A DNA stretch of 34,172 nt, taken from the NCBI GenBank assembly GCA_020062745.1, contig JAGUVT010000015.1:1-34172 (forward strand), read 5' to 3'. Numbering within the stretch: the stretch's first letter is position 1; each line of letters starts with the position of its first letter. This document shows, one piece after another, positions 21,896-28,737 of the stretch. Made by a program: the position numbers and the translations under genes. The notes below the pieces were generated by a model. It searched no databases, was not told the origin of the DNA, and worked only from the letters and a program-made list of their open reading frames with translations. Source of the DNA: Deltaproteobacteria bacterium (lineage in GTDB: Bacteria; Bacillota; Desulfotomaculia; Desulfotomaculales; JAGUVT01).

Positions 21896-23308
21896 TCAAT
21901 TTCCTCTATTTTCTCCTGCTTCGCCTGAGGCCAGCACCTCCATGAAAACCTTCACGATTTCAGGGTCGAGCTGAGTTCCGGCAACTCTTTTCAATTCCTC
22001 GACGACCACTTCTTTGCTCAAAGCCTTCCTGTAGGCGCGATCGGAGGTCATCGCGTCGTAAAGGTCCGCCACGGCAATAATCCTCGCTCCCAACGGAATC
22101 TCCTCCCCTTTCAACCCGGCGGGGTAACCTTTTCCGTCATATCTTTCATGGTGGGCATAGATGAGGGGTTTGACCTTCCAGGGAAAGTTAATGCCGTTTA
22201 AGATTTTCAAGCTTAATTCAGGGTGCTTTTTTACCTTCCTCAACTCCTCCTCATCCAGCCTCCCGGGCTTATTGAGAATAGCCTCACGGATACCGATCTT
22301 CCCGATATCGTGGAGGACAGCCGCCACTTCGATACCTTCTATTTCTTTAGGGGATAGGCCCAGCCTTCTGGCTATGGCTACCGCATGTTTTGCCACGGCG
22401 TCGGAATGGCCTTTCGTATAAGGATCTTTTATCCCCAGAGCGGATACCAGTGCCCGGATGGTGCTGAGATAGCTTTCATGCAGGTTCCGGTACAGGCTGG
22501 CGTTTTCAATGGCAGACGCCGCCTCGTGGGCCATGGTGGAAAGGAGATTTAAGTCATCTTCCGCAAAAGGCTCGGAATCTTTTTTCCGGTTGAGGTTGAT
22601 CACACCGATGGTGCCCTTCCTGGTTTTCAGAGGGGCGCAGATGGAATTTACCCCTTCATACTTATTTCTGCCTTTAATTTTAACCAGTGGATTGTCCGCC
22701 TTTCCGCAAATAACCATAGGTTTGCCGCTCAGGGCCACTGTTCCGGCAATACCTTCCCCTATTTCAATCCTGGTTTTTCTGATAACATCTTCGTTTAAAC
22801 CGTGCGCCTTCTTTATAGTCAAGACTTTCTCTTCAGGGTTGAAAAGCATCAGGGAACCGTCTTCTGCCTTGAGGGTCTCGACAGCGCTCTTGAAAATCAA
22901 CGAAAGCACTTCATCCAGGTCAAGGGAGGAACCGGTCATCTTGACGGTCTCATGCAGGACGGTCATCTCGGTCAGTCTTTGACTCAATCTGATGTTCAGA
23001 TCCTTGATCTCGGCCAGGTAGCCGTCCGTCATGGAATTTAGATATTCCCTGTACGCCGTCCCATAGCTCATGATTCCTTCCATAAGAAAGGTGAAGGACT
23101 CATCAATAGCTTTCTTTGGATATACTTTTTTATCTTTATTGATTTTCTTTATGGCATTGAGGTGCATTTCAACAATCGATTCAGGACCTGTCCCCTGCTT
23201 CATCAGTTCCTTGCCGAACCCGGAGATCTGATAGAGATATGTCTCCCGGCCTGTATCCAGGTAAAGCGCGAGATTTTTTTCGTAGTCGAGACTTAGCTGC
23301 TCATCCAT
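21896..23308 (-). CDS. RsbU-N-like / GAF / HD-GYP cyclic-di-GMP phosphodiesterase
   Basis: A 470-residue protein in three parts. Residues 1-92 resemble the N-terminal domain of RsbU, the RsbT-binding domain: YLYQISGFGKEL, GPESIVEMHL and FLMEGIMSYGTAYREYL follow the RsbU pattern. Residues about 110-270 form a GAF domain. Residues about 285-465 form an HD-GYP domain with the metal pair H333-D334 (LHDIGKIG) and HHERYDGKGYP at 386-396, all intact, so hydrolysis of c-di-GMP is expected. GAGGTGG precedes ATG 23308. The gene lies on the same strand as the stressosome operon, separated from it by a decayed IS3 element. Control by an RsbT-type protein is inferred from the N-terminal domain. Confidence 0.9.
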   Translation of the reverse strand: MDEQLSLDYEKNLALYLDTGRETYLYQISGFGKELMKQGTGPESIVEMHLNAIKKINKDKKVYPKKAIDESFTFLMEGIMSYGTAYREYLNSMTDGYLAEIKDLNIRLSQRLTEMTVLHETVKMTGSSLDLDEVLSLIFKSAVETLKAEDGSLMLFNPEEKVLTIKKAHGLNEDVIRKTRIEIGEGIAGTVALSGKPMVICGKADNPLVKIKGRNKYEGVNSICAPLKTRKGTIGVINLNRKKDSEPFAEDDLNLLSTMAHEAASAIENASLYRNLHESYLSTIRALVSALGIKDPYTKGHSDAVAKHAVAIARRLGLSPKEIEGIEVAAVLHDIGKIGIREAILNKPGRLDEEELRKVKKHPELSLKILNGINFPWKVKPLIYAHHERYDGKGYPAGLKGEEIPLGARIIAVADLYDAMTSDRAYRKALSKEVVVEELKRVAGTQLDPEIVKVFMEVLASGEAGENRGN

Positions 23309-23735: not shown

Positions 23736-24500
23736 TCAAAGAAGGTTAATCATACCCTTAATACAGGTAAATTTGTCCGCCTTACTCCTGTTTATGCAAC
23801 CTTTGCCATTACTTTTTGCAAGTATTGACACTTGAATTCCCAAGGCGTCATGTATCCCAGGCTTCCAGTGACGACGCTGCCGGTTGTAATATACTTCAAT
23901 GTAATCAAAAATGGCCTGTTTGGCTTCATCCCGTGTTTTGAAGCGGCGCAAGTGAATAAGCTCATTTTTCAAGGTACTGAAAAAGCTCTCCGCAGGGGCA
24001 TTGTCATAACAATTCCCTTTACGGCTCATGCTCTGTATAAAACCGTTCTCACGAAGCAGGTCTTGATAGGCATAACTGGCATATTGAACCCCCCGGTCGA
24101 AAATGATGGATTAACCCTTTGGATGGGCGCTCACGGCCGATCGCCTGCTTTAAAGCCTGGATTACAAGCTCTTTAGGCATAATACTGTTCATAGCCATGC
24201 CAACTACATCTTTGCTATAAAGGTCAACAATGCTTGCCAGATGAAAGCCGGCCCTCATTGGTCGGGATGTAGCTGATGTCGCTTACCCACACAGTATTGG
24301 GGGCGGCAACCTTAAAGTTCTGGTTCAAAAGATTTTCCGCCACTGGGAAGTTGTGCTTGGAATTTGTAGTGGCTTTATACTTCCTGGGGCTTCACCGACT
24401 GAATACCATTTGCCTTCATGAGGCGGTGCACACGGTTTTTCCCGCATCCGAATTGATCTTTAACATCAGCATGTATCCGGCGCACTCCATATAATTTCCG
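23736..24500 (-). pseudogene. IS3-family orfB (DDE transposase), frameshifted
   Basis: The integrase-core reading frame is broken into several pieces. In order they show GVRRIHADVKDQFG, then VWVSDISYIPTNEG, then AGFHLASIVDLYSKDVVGMA, then FDRGVQYASYAYQDLL, then SRKGNCYDNAPAESFFSTLK and, in another frame, LGYMTPWEFKCQYL. The three acidic residues of the DDE site (SDIS, FDRG, AESF) can all be found, but at least four single-base shifts separate the pieces. One is an extra T in the run near 24112. Active transposition by this copy is unlikely. Confidence 0.85.
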
Positions 24501-24795
24501 GCTTTCGGGGGTTTGCAAAGATGGCCGCCGCCTTTTTTAGAATGGCATTCTCCTCACGCAAGTCCTGGTTTTCACGTTTCAACCGGCGAATTTCTTCTTC
24601 GTCCGGTCTCAGGCGGCCACTGCCCCGGAAAGAGTTCACCGGGTCGGCTGAAAACTCTTTGATCCATCGTAGGAGGGTATCATAACTGATACCAAGATCG
24701 GTTGCTACACTGCTTGTTTTCCGTCCTTTTTCCAGTACCATTTTAACAGCGCCAAGTTTAAAATCTTTGTCGTACCGTTTACCTGTTATTGCCAT
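24466..24795 (-). CDS. IS3-family orfA (helix-turn-helix) protein
   Basis: About 110 residues from ATG 24795, with AGGAGGTG upstream. The start MAITGKRYDKDFKLGAVKMV, the SVATDLGISYDTLLRWIKEF helix-turn-helix and a leucine-zipper end (LKRENQDLREENAILKKAAA) are typical of IS3 OrfA. Its last residues come from the overlap with orfB. It is apparently intact. Confidence 0.85.
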   Translation of the reverse strand: MAITGKRYDKDFKLGAVKMVLEKGRKTSSVATDLGISYDTLLRWIKEFSADPVNSFRGSGRLRPDEEEIRRLKRENQDLREENAILKKAAAIFANPRKPEIIWSAPDTC

Positions 24796-24844
24796 GATGG
24801 ACACCTCCTGCTGAATTATATTTTACTTCAGTTCTGTGTGTCCA

Positions 24845-26023
24845 TCAAACCGGGTACAAGGCACATTCATATAAGCAAACTCTATCTTTACCTTCCCCCT
24901 TGGCCCGGTATAAAGCTTCGTCCGCCTTTTTTACCAGGTCTGATTCGCCCATATCTTTCACAGAATAACCAGCAACCCCTGCACTCAGCGTTACCCTTAA
25001 ACGAACTGCGTCCACTTCAAACGTGTGACCTCTGATTTCATCCAGTACGCGAACAGCCGCGTTAACGGCCTGTTTCTTATCGGTATCCGGCATGAGGATG
25101 ACGAACTCATCGCCTCCGTATCTGGCCACTACATCCGTTTCCCGGACAATATCTTTGAGAATCCCGGTTATATTTTTGATAATTGCATCTCCAACAAGAT
25201 GTCCGTAACAATCGTTTATTTCTTTCAGATTGTCTATATCCATTATCATAAGAGAGAGCCTCTGCCGGTATCTCCTGGCCCGCTGAGTTTCTTTTGCCAG
25301 TATTTCATAGAAATGCCGCCTGTTAAAGACTCCAGTCAACCCGTCCGTTGTAGACTGTTCCTCCATGAGCTTATACAGCTTTAACCTTTCAAGCGCCAGG
25401 GCGAACTGGTTGGTTAGAATAGAAATCATCCGTTTCTCTACTTCATCCGGAGTAAAATCCTTTCTGCCGCCAAGCCTGACTTCTCCTGCCAGCACCTTGT
25501 CTATCTTCAAGGGAATGCGAACAGGAAAGTTTTCCCCTGCGTCTTTCTCCAAGTTCTTTGCCTGTATGGATCTGGCAACCACCAACTCCAACTCACCCGT
25601 TGCATTGTTTTTCAGGAATAAATATCCTTCCTCCATTTTTAGCAACTCGGCGGTCTTATCAACAATGTACCGGTATAAGGAATCCATGTCGAGAAAAGAA
25701 ATTAGTCTCATGCCTACTTCCTGCAAAAAGCTTAACCTCTTTAGTTCGACGTAATGCCCAAAGGCTATCTCATAAGGTGATATAACCTCCAGGAAAGCTC
25801 TGAATGTCCGGAAGACTGCCGCCGGCTGTGAGAGTAAAGAATCCTCAGCTAATATCTTCTCCAACGACTCGATGTGCAGGACCAGGATGTCCCCGGGGCC
25901 TAACCCTTCACCCATGAACGACTTGCTCAGTTCATAAAGCGTGTAGAGGCATTCTTCCCGGTTTTCCTTCAAGCACTGGAGCAATGCGGCCGCATACTCT
26001 TCACGTCTTTGATGATCGATCAT
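24845..26023 (-). CDS. RsbU-N-like / GAF / GGDEF diguanylate cyclase
   Basis: A 392-residue protein. Residues 1-92 are an RsbU-N-like domain (YTLYELSKSFM, GPGDILVLHIESL, SPYEIAFGHYVELK), a GAF domain spans about 100-215 and a GGDEF domain about 222-388. The active site GGDEF is at 303-307, and R294-D297 forms an RxxD I-site exactly five residues before it, so product inhibition is likely. Synthesis of c-di-GMP from GTP is expected. The gene starts one base after rsbX, with its GGAGA inside rsbX. The same domain order and position occur in the Moorella stressosome operon. The last few residues after the domain are at the IS boundary, so the native C-terminus may have been trimmed slightly. Confidence 0.93.
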   Translation of the reverse strand: MIDHQRREEYAAALLQCLKENREECLYTLYELSKSFMGEGLGPGDILVLHIESLEKILAEDSLLSQPAAVFRTFRAFLEVISPYEIAFGHYVELKRLSFLQEVGMRLISFLDMDSLYRYIVDKTAELLKMEEGYLFLKNNATGELELVVARSIQAKNLEKDAGENFPVRIPLKIDKVLAGEVRLGGRKDFTPDEVEKRMISILTNQFALALERLKLYKLMEEQSTTDGLTGVFNRRHFYEILAKETQRARRYRQRLSLMIMDIDNLKEINDCYGHLVGDAIIKNITGILKDIVRETDVVARYGGDEFVILMPDTDKKQAVNAAVRVLDEIRGHTFEVDAVRLRVTLSAGVAGYSVKDMGESDLVKKADEALYRAKGEGKDRVCLYECALYPV

Positions 26024-26024
26024 T

Positions 26025-26612
26025 TTAGTTCTCCATTTTGTCTTGCCGGGCCACTACAATGGTGAAGTCATCCCTTTCTCTGCAGAACTCGGCGGCAATT
26101 CTCTCAGCAATGGTCTGAGGATGCTGCCCCAGAAACTCCGGTGGAAAAAGGTTGAAATCAAACTTTCCGGATATGCCGTCCGAGTGGAGAATAATGAGAT
26201 CTCCCGGGTTGTAAGGGAATTCTTCCTCCTTTACCTTGCGGAGGTTATAGCCTAAGATACCGTTTACGGAAACCGGCCTGATTGTCGTCCGGCTCCTTAC
26301 TCTCGCCTCGATATTCCCAACGCCGGCATACCTCAATACGGAACGGTCCAGATCAATCAGCGCCAGTCCTATAGCTGCACCCCTGGTTTTTTTCAACTCC
26401 TCATGGCAGCCCTTGATAATTTCCGTAAGACTTTTCTCATAGTGGCTTTCCAGGTACTCCACAGCTCTGTTTGCGGCAACGGCGGCATCACTTCCATGAC
26501 CCAGGCCGTCTATCACGGCAATCAGTACTTTGTTCTCAAATTCCTTGATAAAATAGGCATCCCCACAGACTGTCTGCCCTTTTAACGCTTCATTAATCAC
26601 GCCAAACCGCAT
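26025..26612 (-). CDS. rsbX: RsbX-like PP2C phosphatase of the stressosome
   Basis: A 195-residue PPM/SpoIIE-type phosphatase. Metal-binding motifs are CGDAYF, IDGLGHGSDA, LHSDGISGKFD and the terminal RDDFTIVVA. RsbX resets the stressosome by removing phosphate from RsbS and RsbR after RsbT has acted. Its length fits RsbX, not the longer RsbU. It lies seven bases after the second rsbT-like gene. Confidence 0.92.
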   Translation of the reverse strand: MRFGVINEALKGQTVCGDAYFIKEFENKVLIAVIDGLGHGSDAAVAANRAVEYLESHYEKSLTEIIKGCHEELKKTRGAAIGLALIDLDRSVLRYAGVGNIEARVRSRTTIRPVSVNGILGYNLRKVKEEEFPYNPGDLIILHSDGISGKFDFNLFPPEFLGQHPQTIAERIAAEFCRERDDFTIVVARQDKMEN

Positions 26613-26619
26613 AACAACC

Positions 26620-27039
26620 TCACAGCCATTTTCTTACCCGTATCGTCGTTCCTTTTCCCGGCTCAGATTCTATCTCCAGTTCGTCCATCATCCTCTTTGC
26701 TCCCGACAGTCCTATTCCCAATGAGTCTTTGGTGGAATATCCATCTCTGAAAACCCGGGCAGTGTCCTCCAAACCCGGTCCCCGGTCGGCAAAAATAATC
26801 TCCAGCCCTCTTTTTTCTCCCGTAGAAATTCCCCTGAATGTCACCGTGCCCTTGCCGGCGTGGGCAAGGATATTCCTGGCCAGTTCTGAAACGGCGGTAA
26901 TGATGAGAGTTGTCCTCACCTCTTCGAATCCCATCAGACGGGCGTGCTCTGCTGCTGCCCGCCGGGCCACGCCCACATGGTATTCCTCTTCTATTTTTAG
27001 TATAATTTCCCTGTTCTTAATCTTCTTTATCTCAGCCAT
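26620..27039 (-). CDS. second RsbT-like GHKL switch kinase
   Basis: A 139-residue GHKL ATPase of the anti-sigma/RsbT family. The N-box is VSELARNI, the G1-type motif FADRGPGLED and the G2-type motif LGIGLSGAKRMMDELE. It is a clear paralogue of the gene just upstream (27027-27428) but differs in the stretch after the N-box (LAHAGKG in place of LYAGTG) and has a longer N-terminus. The canonical stressosome has only one RsbT. With two RsbU-N-type targets in the locus, each kinase may serve a different one; this is inference. Its start overlaps the previous gene by 13 bases. Confidence 0.9.
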   Translation of the reverse strand: MAEIKKIKNREIILKIEEEYHVGVARRAAAEHARLMGFEEVRTTLIITAVSELARNILAHAGKGTVTFRGISTGEKRGLEIIFADRGPGLEDTARVFRDGYSTKDSLGIGLSGAKRMMDELEIESEPGKGTTIRVRKWL

Positions 27040-27428
27040 TTTTTGATGGTCACTATAGTTCCCGCCCCCACCTTGCTCTTTATCTCGAACTCGTCCACAA
27101 GGCGCTTTGTTCCCGGAAGGCCCTGACCCAAACCCTTGCTTGTGCTGTAGCCGTCCTGCATAACCATTTCGATGTCCGGAATGCCGGGACCATTGTCCTC
27201 TGCCACAATCTCCATCCCTTTTCCGGAATCTCCTGACACAGCTTTAATAACCACCCTTCCCGTTCCGGCATACAGGTAGATGTTGCGGCTGAGTTCTGAG
27301 ACAGCCGTGGTGATGCGGGTCTGGTCCGCCAGGCCGAAACCAAGCTTTTTGGCCATTTCCCTGGCAACCTGACGGGCAAGGATAACATCCTCGCTGCTTT
27401 TTATGCTGGTTTCTTTAACCTCCTTCAT
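27027..27428 (-). CDS. rsbT: RsbT switch kinase
   Basis: A 133-residue RsbT. It closely follows the Bacillus pattern: DQTRITTAVSELSRNIYLYAG, the ATP-binding VAEDNGPGIPDIEMVMQDG and GLGQGLPGTKRLVDEF, ending VTIKKWLR. RsbT is held on the RsbR-RsbS complex, phosphorylates them under stress, is released, and then activates its RsbU-N-type partner. ATG 27428 (MKEVKETS) was chosen over the longer frame because it overlaps the end of rsbS by 14 bases and matches the family length. Confidence 0.93.
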   Translation of the reverse strand: MKEVKETSIKSSEDVILARQVAREMAKKLGFGLADQTRITTAVSELSRNIYLYAGTGRVVIKAVSGDSGKGMEIVAEDNGPGIPDIEMVMQDGYSTSKGLGQGLPGTKRLVDEFEIKSKVGAGTIVTIKKWLR

Positions 27429-27789
27429 GACCCACCTCACCCATGTTCTGCAGCAATTCCAGACCCTTTTCCAAGTTGAGGGCGGTATGGACACCTTTGA
27501 GTTCCAGCCCCATCTCCTGCAAGGTAATGGCTATATCTGGTTGAACGCCCACCAGCACGCTTTCAACACCCATGGTTCTGGCCATGACGGCCGTGTCGGA
27601 GATCATTCTTCCCATAAAGCTGTCAACCAGATTTACAGCGCTCACATCTATCACCAAACCCCGCGCCCTGGTTTCATAAATTTTCTTTAAAATATCCTCC
27701 TGAAGCCGGAACGCCATCTCATCGTGAAGTTCCACCTGAAGGGTGAGGATGAGGGTATCACCCATCTTTAATATCGGTACCCTCTCCAT
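27415..27789 (-). CDS. rsbS: RsbS stressosome scaffold (STAS)
   Basis: A 124-residue single STAS domain. The phosphoacceptor Ser57 is in NLVDSFMGRM, the position of Ser59 in Bacillus RsbS, followed by VGVQPDIAITLQEMG. It forms the core with RsbR and holds RsbT in the unstressed cell. GGAGGG sits about nine bases before ATG 27789, four bases after rsbR. Confidence 0.94.
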   Translation of the reverse strand: MERVPILKMGDTLILTLQVELHDEMAFRLQEDILKKIYETRARGLVIDVSAVNLVDSFMGRMISDTAVMARTMGVESVLVGVQPDIAITLQEMGLELKGVHTALNLEKGLELLQNMGEVGHEGG

Positions 27790-27793
27790 TTAC

Positions 27794-28657
27794 TTATCCC
27801 TCCGCCTTCGTTACTTTAAGCTTCAACTTTCTGAAGGCCAGCTCCAGTCCGTCCCGGAGACTTGCCCTGGTAACAAACCCCGACAGGTCAACCCCGAGGT
27901 GGACGATGGTTTGAGAAATCTGGGGGCTCAAACCGGTTAGAATACTTTCTGCGCCCATAAGCCTGGCTGCCTGCATGGTTCGCAGGAGCCTGCTTGCCAC
28001 CTCGGTGTCCACAGCAGGCACACCGGTGATGTCTATAATAACCATGGAAGACTTGGTGGTCACAATGCTCTCAAGGAGGCTCTCCATGATCTGCTTGGCC
28101 CTGGCGCTGTCAACGCTCCCGATGAGTGGTAAGATCAGGATCTCGTCCCAGACCTGAATCACGGGAGTCGAGAGTTCCAGCATAGATTTCTGCTGCTCCC
28201 TGATGACTTCTTCTCTTCCCTTCACATAGGCTTCAAATGTGACGATGGCCAGCTTGTCGAGGAGATCGGCGAATACAAGTCCCGCATTGACAAGCGTGTC
28301 CAACCGGTCATCGAATTCCTTCTGTAGGATCCTGATAAAGATTTGTCTGAGCGAGAGTATGAAGTTCGTCGTTTCTGACGGCGAAAAACCAATGGACGCC
28401 CTGGATGTGGAGAGGTCAGCCAGAGACTTGTTGATCTCATCGTACTCCGGCGCGGTTATGTCCTCCAAGTTTCCACCTGCTACAGCCTTAACTAGAAGTT
28501 TTAAGAACCGGCTCGACTCCTCCTCCAGTTGTTTTGCTGTAATCAACCCTTTTTGGAAGGCCGGGAGGTCCGCTTGCGCCTTTATCCAGGCGTCCAATAT
28601 CTCCTTTTCTTTCTTTACCAGTACTCCTGAAATGTTTGAGACCTCTTTTTTCGCCAT
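27794..28657 (-). CDS. rsbR: RsbR stressosome sensor (RsbRD-N-like plus STAS)
   Basis: A 287-residue RsbR. The N-terminal half (about 1-155) is helical and starts KKEKEILDAWIKAQ, resembling the RsbRD N-terminal sensor domain rather than a globin-type RsbRA domain; the signal is unknown. The C-terminal STAS domain keeps both phosphoacceptor threonines: T218 in PAVDTEVASR and T250 in QISQTIVHLG. ATG 28657 was chosen over 28708 because of GGAGG seven bases upstream. First gene of the operon, behind the promoter at 28738-28766. Confidence 0.93.
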   Translation of the reverse strand: MAKKEVSNISGVLVKKEKEILDAWIKAQADLPAFQKGLITAKQLEEESSRFLKLLVKAVAGGNLEDITAPEYDEINKSLADLSTSRASIGFSPSETTNFILSLRQIFIRILQKEFDDRLDTLVNAGLVFADLLDKLAIVTFEAYVKGREEVIREQQKSMLELSTPVIQVWDEILILPLIGSVDSARAKQIMESLLESIVTTKSSMVIIDITGVPAVDTEVASRLLRTMQAARLMGAESILTGLSPQISQTIVHLGVDLSGFVTRASLRDGLELAFRKLKLKVTKAEG

Positions 28658-28737
28658 TTTCCTTCCTCCTGTCATAGACCTGGTCTGCAATTTTTCATAA
28701 TCCGACAAATTTATAGTTTTTTATACAATATAGTTAT

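Follow-up and report, generated by a model that had tools for sequence, protein, structure and literature searches.

The stressosome of Moorella thermoacetica is encoded by the gene series MtR-MtS-MtT-MtX-MtG, and its output protein has an RsbU_N-GAF-GGDEF architecture (Quin et al. 2012, as cited in PMC12143880). Minimal stressosome modules of the R-S-T-X type with varied downstream outputs have been described as well (Heinz et al. 2022, PMC9237108). Both the R-S-T-X modules with varied outputs and the control of a cyclase by a stressosome via an RsbU_N domain are already known (PMC12143880, PMC9237108). The reset of the stressosome after RsbT release has been less studied than its firing. In the open-access literature, to which our search was confined (subscription papers lay outside it), no title or abstract dealt with two RsbT kinases in one operon or with a kinase domain fused to RsbX.

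Here, we analysed a 34,172-nt stretch of DNA (hereafter the window). It carries on the minus strand a stressosome operon with rsbR, rsbS, two genes for RsbT-type kinases (T1 and T2), rsbX, and a gene for an RsbU_N-GGDEF protein. A gene for an RsbU_N-GAF-HD-GYP protein lies beyond a broken IS3-type element. The features are as follows.

27794..28657, minus strand: rsbR, RsbRD_N sensor domain and STAS domain (Pfam RsbRD_N 1e-21, STAS 4e-16)
27415..27789, minus strand: rsbS, single STAS domain with the DSF phospho-acceptor motif (Pfam STAS 2e-12; sequence)
27027..27428, minus strand: T1, canonical RsbT switch kinase, every RsbT hallmark residue kept (Pfam HATPase; residues)
26620..27039, minus strand: T2, second RsbT-like GHKL kinase, ATP site intact, hallmarks 23/35/38/53 lost (Pfam, residues, fold)
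26025..26612, minus strand: rsbX-type PP2C/SpoIIE feedback phosphatase (Pfam SpoIIE 5e-15)
24845..26023, minus strand: output 1, diverged RsbU_N and GGDEF diguanylate cyclase (Pfam GGDEF 7e-45, RsbU_N 6e-10)
23736..24804, minus strand: IS3-type remnant between the two output genes, outside the system (Pfam HTH_Tnp_1 2e-16; ORF list)
21896..23308, minus strand: output 2, RsbU_N, GAF and HD-GYP c-di-GMP phosphodiesterase (Pfam RsbU_N 1e-15, GAF_2, HD_5 2e-37)

The start of rsbR was placed at ATG 28657 behind an AGGAGG, giving a protein of 287 aa; the longest ORF begins at 28708. The start codon of T1, ATG 27428, lies inside rsbS, giving an overlap of 14 nt. That of T2, ATG 27039, lies inside T1 with 13 nt of overlap, and 7 nt separate the end of T2 from rsbX. 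Given these two overlaps and the short gap, the genes look translationally coupled. T2 (139 aa) and RsbX (195 aa) are separate ORFs, with no covalent PP2C fusion in the window. The order rsbR, rsbS, rsbT, rsbX and then an RsbU_N-GGDEF gene, by which the Moorella-type c-di-GMP stressosome is recognised, is present in the operon, and the cyclase carries both the GGDEF motif and the RxxD I-site. The IS3-type remnant, which starts no more than ~40 nt from the stop codon of the cyclase gene, parts the cyclase from the HD-GYP gene. Its orfA is open (24466-24804), and orfB is present only as a C-terminal fragment of at least 80 aa (23736-24029); a search for inverted repeats marking the ends of the element found none. 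With the remnant in between, the phosphodiesterase gene may have become uncoupled from the operon.

The preliminary description had proposed a near-canonical RsbT at 27027-27428 and an RsbT-type paralogue beside it in the same operon, and both ORFs were confirmed. The two proteins are ~45% identical, and both match Pfam HATPase_c_2/HATPase_c well over the cut-off. T1 is located after rsbS and has the GHKL fold with the N-box, DxGPG, and GxGL motifs. The kinase motifs of T2 are intact as proposed, with the N-box E/N, D78, the D-x-G-P-G box, and the G-x-G-L box all kept. An AlphaFold2 model of T2, built from a 4-sequence alignment, adopts the GHKL fold (pLDDT 85, pTM 0.81). T2 is 68% identical between the window and its nearest relative, G039, and over the same comparison its purifying constraint is similar to that of T1 (pN/pS 0.33 versus 0.30). 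T1 and T2 are the only RsbT-like genes of the window genome, besides one weak GHKL match on another contig.

Residues are numbered after the B. subtilis RsbT and RsbU sequences. The letters and numbers were checked against PMC12143880 at R19, R23, N24, and D92 of RsbT and at E24, Y28, S49, K53, I74, I78, T89, R91, G92, and Q94 of RsbU. Among 75 RsbT proteins, R19 is invariant, and R/K23 (73/75), D35 (70/75), R/K38 (72/75), and Y53 (71/75) are nearly so. T1 carries the complete set of R19, R/K23, D35, R/K38, Y53, and D78. The T2 proteins of the window and G039 keep R19 and have A or I at position 23, R or Q at 35, L or F at 38, and H at 53, so that the RsbT signature R/K23, D35, R/K38, and Y53 is absent from them. 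The main departures of T2 fall on helices 1-2, at B. subtilis RsbT positions 14, 23, 35, 38, and 53. T2 had been described as differing from T1 in a lid or partner-facing stretch; the divergence is real, but the lid is not its main site. Three residues of RsbT have been implicated in binding to RsbU (PMC12143880, citing Hardwick 2007); R23 is one of them, and its loss argues against canonical RsbU_N binding by T2. In the window, the RsbT-contact residues E24 and Y28 are present in both RsbU_N domains, and the RsbU_N of the cyclase shows strong divergence, with I78 replaced by S, G79 by P, and G81 by E. With E24 and Y28 retained in the two domains and R19 and R23 in T1, T1 alone could serve both outputs.

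A different partner altogether was also considered. T2 might be an anti-sigma-type kinase of the RsbW/SpoIIAB kind, acting on a sigma factor or on a separate STAS antagonist, and the closest PDB structures to the T2 model are indeed SpoIIAB and RsbW, in a comparison for which PDB sequence searches yielded no solved RsbT chain. However, T2 scores 49 with NCBIfam spIIAB against a cut-off of 135, reaches 17 bits with an RsbW-type HMM against ~147 bits for RsbT, and lies in an operon that has no sigma gene. An anti-sigma function was rejected on these scores, and we regard this reading as highly improbable.

We annotated loci from relatives with HMMs built from the window proteins. At the order level, an RsbT-type gene is present in 19 of 113 genomes, and T2 occurs only in the window genome and G039. 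At the phylum level, 51 of 398 genomes have RsbT-type matches. Five operon layouts were found: (a) R-S-T-X-RsbU_N-GGDEF, the Moorella type with one kinase and one RsbU_N, in G125, G342, G398, and others; (b) R-S-T-X-GGDEF, lacking RsbU_N; (c) R-S-T and then T'-X, in which X is joined to a second kinase domain, with outputs that are mostly histidine kinases or GGDEF proteins; (d) R-S-T-T2-X with a free T2, in the window, G039, and also G541 and G542 from another class; and (e) R-T'-S-T-X-RsbU_N-GGDEF, in G188 (operon at L112 1629-5648). In G542, no rsbR was detected on the contig. The second RsbT-type kinase of G188, between rsbR and rsbS, retains the hallmark residues. Layout (c) also appears in plasmid records of D. 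radiodurans, Deinococcus sp., Paraburkholderia, Phaeobacter, and Halobaculum, spanning Deinococcota, Pseudomonadota, and Halobacteria, and one of these names the phosphatase 'ATP-binding SpoIIE family protein phosphatase'.

In all the T2 and T'-X loci inspected, RsbX either directly follows the second kinase (the window genome, G039, G541, and G542) or forms one protein with it (22 sampled genomes, plus the plasmid records above). Judged from gene order, pairing with X is the steady feature of the second kinase. T2 shares with T' this direct pairing with RsbX, and not the covalent fusion. A scan of genome contigs with T2 as query returned only distant kinases, including an orphan T-X pair in Chloroflexales. 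In that pair (L004 and L005 5935-6974), rsbT-like and rsbX-like genes are followed by a large GAF histidine kinase gene, with no RsbR/RsbS gene found nearby. Elsewhere, an RsbT-like domain is N-terminal in larger ATP-binding proteins of the histidine-kinase type beside stressosome genes (L181 6345-8261, L182 5351-7054, L185 5423-6778, L092 5250-7550). In G020 (L054 4503-6665), rsbT is in two pieces ~1.7 kb apart within an otherwise complete stressosome operon.

The number of kinases had been noted to equal the number of RsbU_N targets, and this holds for the window genome, which has T1 and T2 and exactly two RsbU_N proteins. Each kinase could then have its own RsbU_N enzyme to activate, and a single stressosome would direct c-di-GMP synthesis and breakdown via separate kinases. 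If T1 and T2 served separate outputs, stress could raise or lower c-di-GMP depending on the kinase released. Two RsbU_N proteins were found in no sampled genome besides the window genome and G039, each of which also has two kinases; RsbU_N outputs occur in each of the four free-T2 genomes; and the cyclase RsbU_N has diverged at positions 78, 79, and 81, as a re-paired target might. The counts across genomes do not follow this arrangement, however. Genome-wide, the free-T2 genomes have 2, 2, 1, and 1 RsbU_N proteins; T'-X genomes have none (0 in 22/22); and genomes without a phosphatase-linked second kinase have one (21 genomes) or none (16 genomes). The presence of the second kinase does not, therefore, follow the number of RsbU_N targets. 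The suggested check, whether genomes with one output carry a single rsbT, came out against the proposal, as G541 and G542 carry T and a free T2 with one RsbU_N each. The only RsbU_N protein of G541 is an RsbU_N-PAS-histidine kinase encoded straight after rsbX. G188 likewise combines two RsbT-type kinases with one RsbU_N cyclase. With the missing R23 of T2 added to these counts, we consider one kinase per output unlikely. Its specific form, in which T1 serves the RsbU_N phosphodiesterase and a re-specialised T2 the diverged cyclase RsbU_N, appears more doubtful still.

G039 also stands against one kinase per output. Its T2 is conserved, yet it has no stressosome-linked cyclase and has at the place of the cyclase a bare RsbU_N domain of 103 aa. 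This domain is 33% identical to the cyclase RsbU_N and groups in the tree with the HD-GYP RsbU_N (89/89), so that its orthology to the window cyclase is doubtful. The gene (L038 4600-4911) lies between rsbX and the RsbU_N-HD-GYP gene, and its product has almost no linker and no effector. The free-standing domain is possibly a decoy for RsbT. In the genomes counted, RsbU_N accompanies free T2 in all four cases and fused T' in none of 22, which could hint at a link between T2 and RsbU_N; this is not proof, and the two patterns may reflect two independent events.

We compared T2 with RsbT and with the fused T'. The main lineage of fused T' has H53 in 18/20 and R20 in 17/20 proteins, and D35 and R/K38 are mostly absent. 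T2 has H53 and R20 in common with most fused T'. The T2 proteins of G541 and G542 have H53, yet retain K23, D35, and R/K38. At the top 20 sites that discriminate RsbT from T', the T2 proteins score -5 and -10 (RsbT mean -45, T' mean +56), an intermediate position at or just past the edge of the RsbT range. Over the whole length, T2 scores higher with the RsbT HMM (147-150 bits) than with that of fused T' (127 bits).

A concatenated R-S-T-X tree joins the window and G039 as sister to the fused-type operons (93/93) and keeps them separate from those of the Moorella type (95/93). Support for the grouping with fused-type operons falls to 48/78 without X and without the long rows. The grouping is absent from the X-only tree, and both the X-only and the R-S-T-only trees are weak. 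A clade of 16 rows (94/87) contains T1, its G039 orthologue, and RsbT proteins that nearly all belong to T + T'-X operons; the sole exception is L176, in which X was not detected. With moderate support from these trees, T1 and the R-S-T-X core appear to group with the fused-type operons. For T2 itself, AU tests rejected none of the placements compared, giving p-AU 0.22 for one clade with fused T', p 0.47 for a position inside RsbT, p 0.43 for a grouping with the T2 of G541/G542, and p 0.15-0.25 for a grouping with its own T1, which was 7.5-8.9 lnL worse and the worst of the groupings tested. A recent duplication of T1 is thereby disfavoured as the origin of T2. A split from a fusion, an ancestral free T' with fusion elsewhere at a later time, and an old duplicate of RsbT that came to occupy this place fit equally well.

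These results bear on whether T2 acts independently of X. As a diverged RsbT duplicate that binds RsbR/RsbS, T2 could compete with or buffer T1 and so tune its hold and release, and its place before X would simply reflect tandem duplication. The higher overall RsbT score and the intact ATP site of T2 agree with such a competitor, and the AU test does not reject duplication from T1. On the other hand, the same position recurs in G541/G542 of another class and as fusions across many lineages, and the grouping that a tandem duplicate of T1 calls for was the worst tested. We therefore think a competitor independent of X fairly unlikely. Competition as such, which the preliminary description had raised for one of the kinases, is compatible with the reading that we prefer, in which T2 corresponds to the phosphatase-linked second kinase in unfused form and acts with X to reset the stressosome or to compete with T1 there. 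Resting on gene order and sequence, this reading seems to us somewhat more probable than its alternatives taken together.

In the proposed reset mechanism, T1 would be an ordinary stressosome switch kinase held by RsbR/RsbS. Upon stress, it would phosphorylate RsbR/RsbS, leave, and bind the cyclase and the phosphodiesterase at their RsbU_N domains. T2 would be the free-standing version of the GHKL module T', which many stressosome operons encode as an N-terminal fusion with RsbX. Together, T2 and X would form the reset unit through a putative physical association, with T2 presumably recognising the RsbR/RsbS STAS core via the usual GHKL-STAS face. T2 would thus bring X to phosphorylated RsbR/RsbS, occupy the docking sites of T1, or do both. 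It would thereby set the threshold and duration of T1 release, in a direction that we infer, and would not drive an output of its own.

One GGDEF lineage offers a view of what T' may contribute. In its fused T', much of the ATP lid is missing, as is the second glycine in the first glycine box, and X-only operons are nested among these decayed-T' operons in the R-S-T-X tree. The decay and the nesting suggest that a non-catalytic T' can still serve for docking or gating, and that T' is dispensable. Because its ATP site is complete, the T2 of the window may also phosphorylate. The decayed loci are L049, L050, L106, L108, L109, L113, L114, L119, and L122, and their output is a GGDEF protein without RsbU_N. 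The second kinase stands free beside RsbX in some operons and forms one protein with it in many phyla, which suggests that a GHKL subunit linked to the phosphatase recurs among stressosome modules. As T2 of the window is a separate small protein, binding, competition, and deletion tests would be simple.

Compared with known systems, the window shares with Moorella thermoacetica the R-S-T-X module followed by an RsbU_N-GGDEF cyclase. The Moorella system, as cited, has one kinase and one output, whereas the window adds a kinase before X and an RsbU_N-HD-GYP output. In the modules of Heinz et al. 2022, the feedback phosphatase also directly follows RST and the outputs occur with or without RsbU_N; in contrast, RsbX is a single-domain protein there, and the account of these modules in PMC9237108 makes no mention of a second RsbT-like kinase. 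All RsbT hallmarks of B. subtilis are found in T1, and E24 and Y28 of its RsbU in the RsbU_N domains of the window. The B. subtilis output is a phosphatase, whereas those of the window are c-di-GMP enzymes and T2 is without R23. The HATPase-PP2C fusions that follow rsbT, as on the plasmid of Paraburkholderia sp. D15, resemble the window in that a second GHKL domain is paired with RsbX downstream of rsbRST. In the plasmid the kinase is covalently fused, whereas in the window it forms, with RsbX, separate proteins of 139 and 195 aa, and T2 is less diverged from RsbT.
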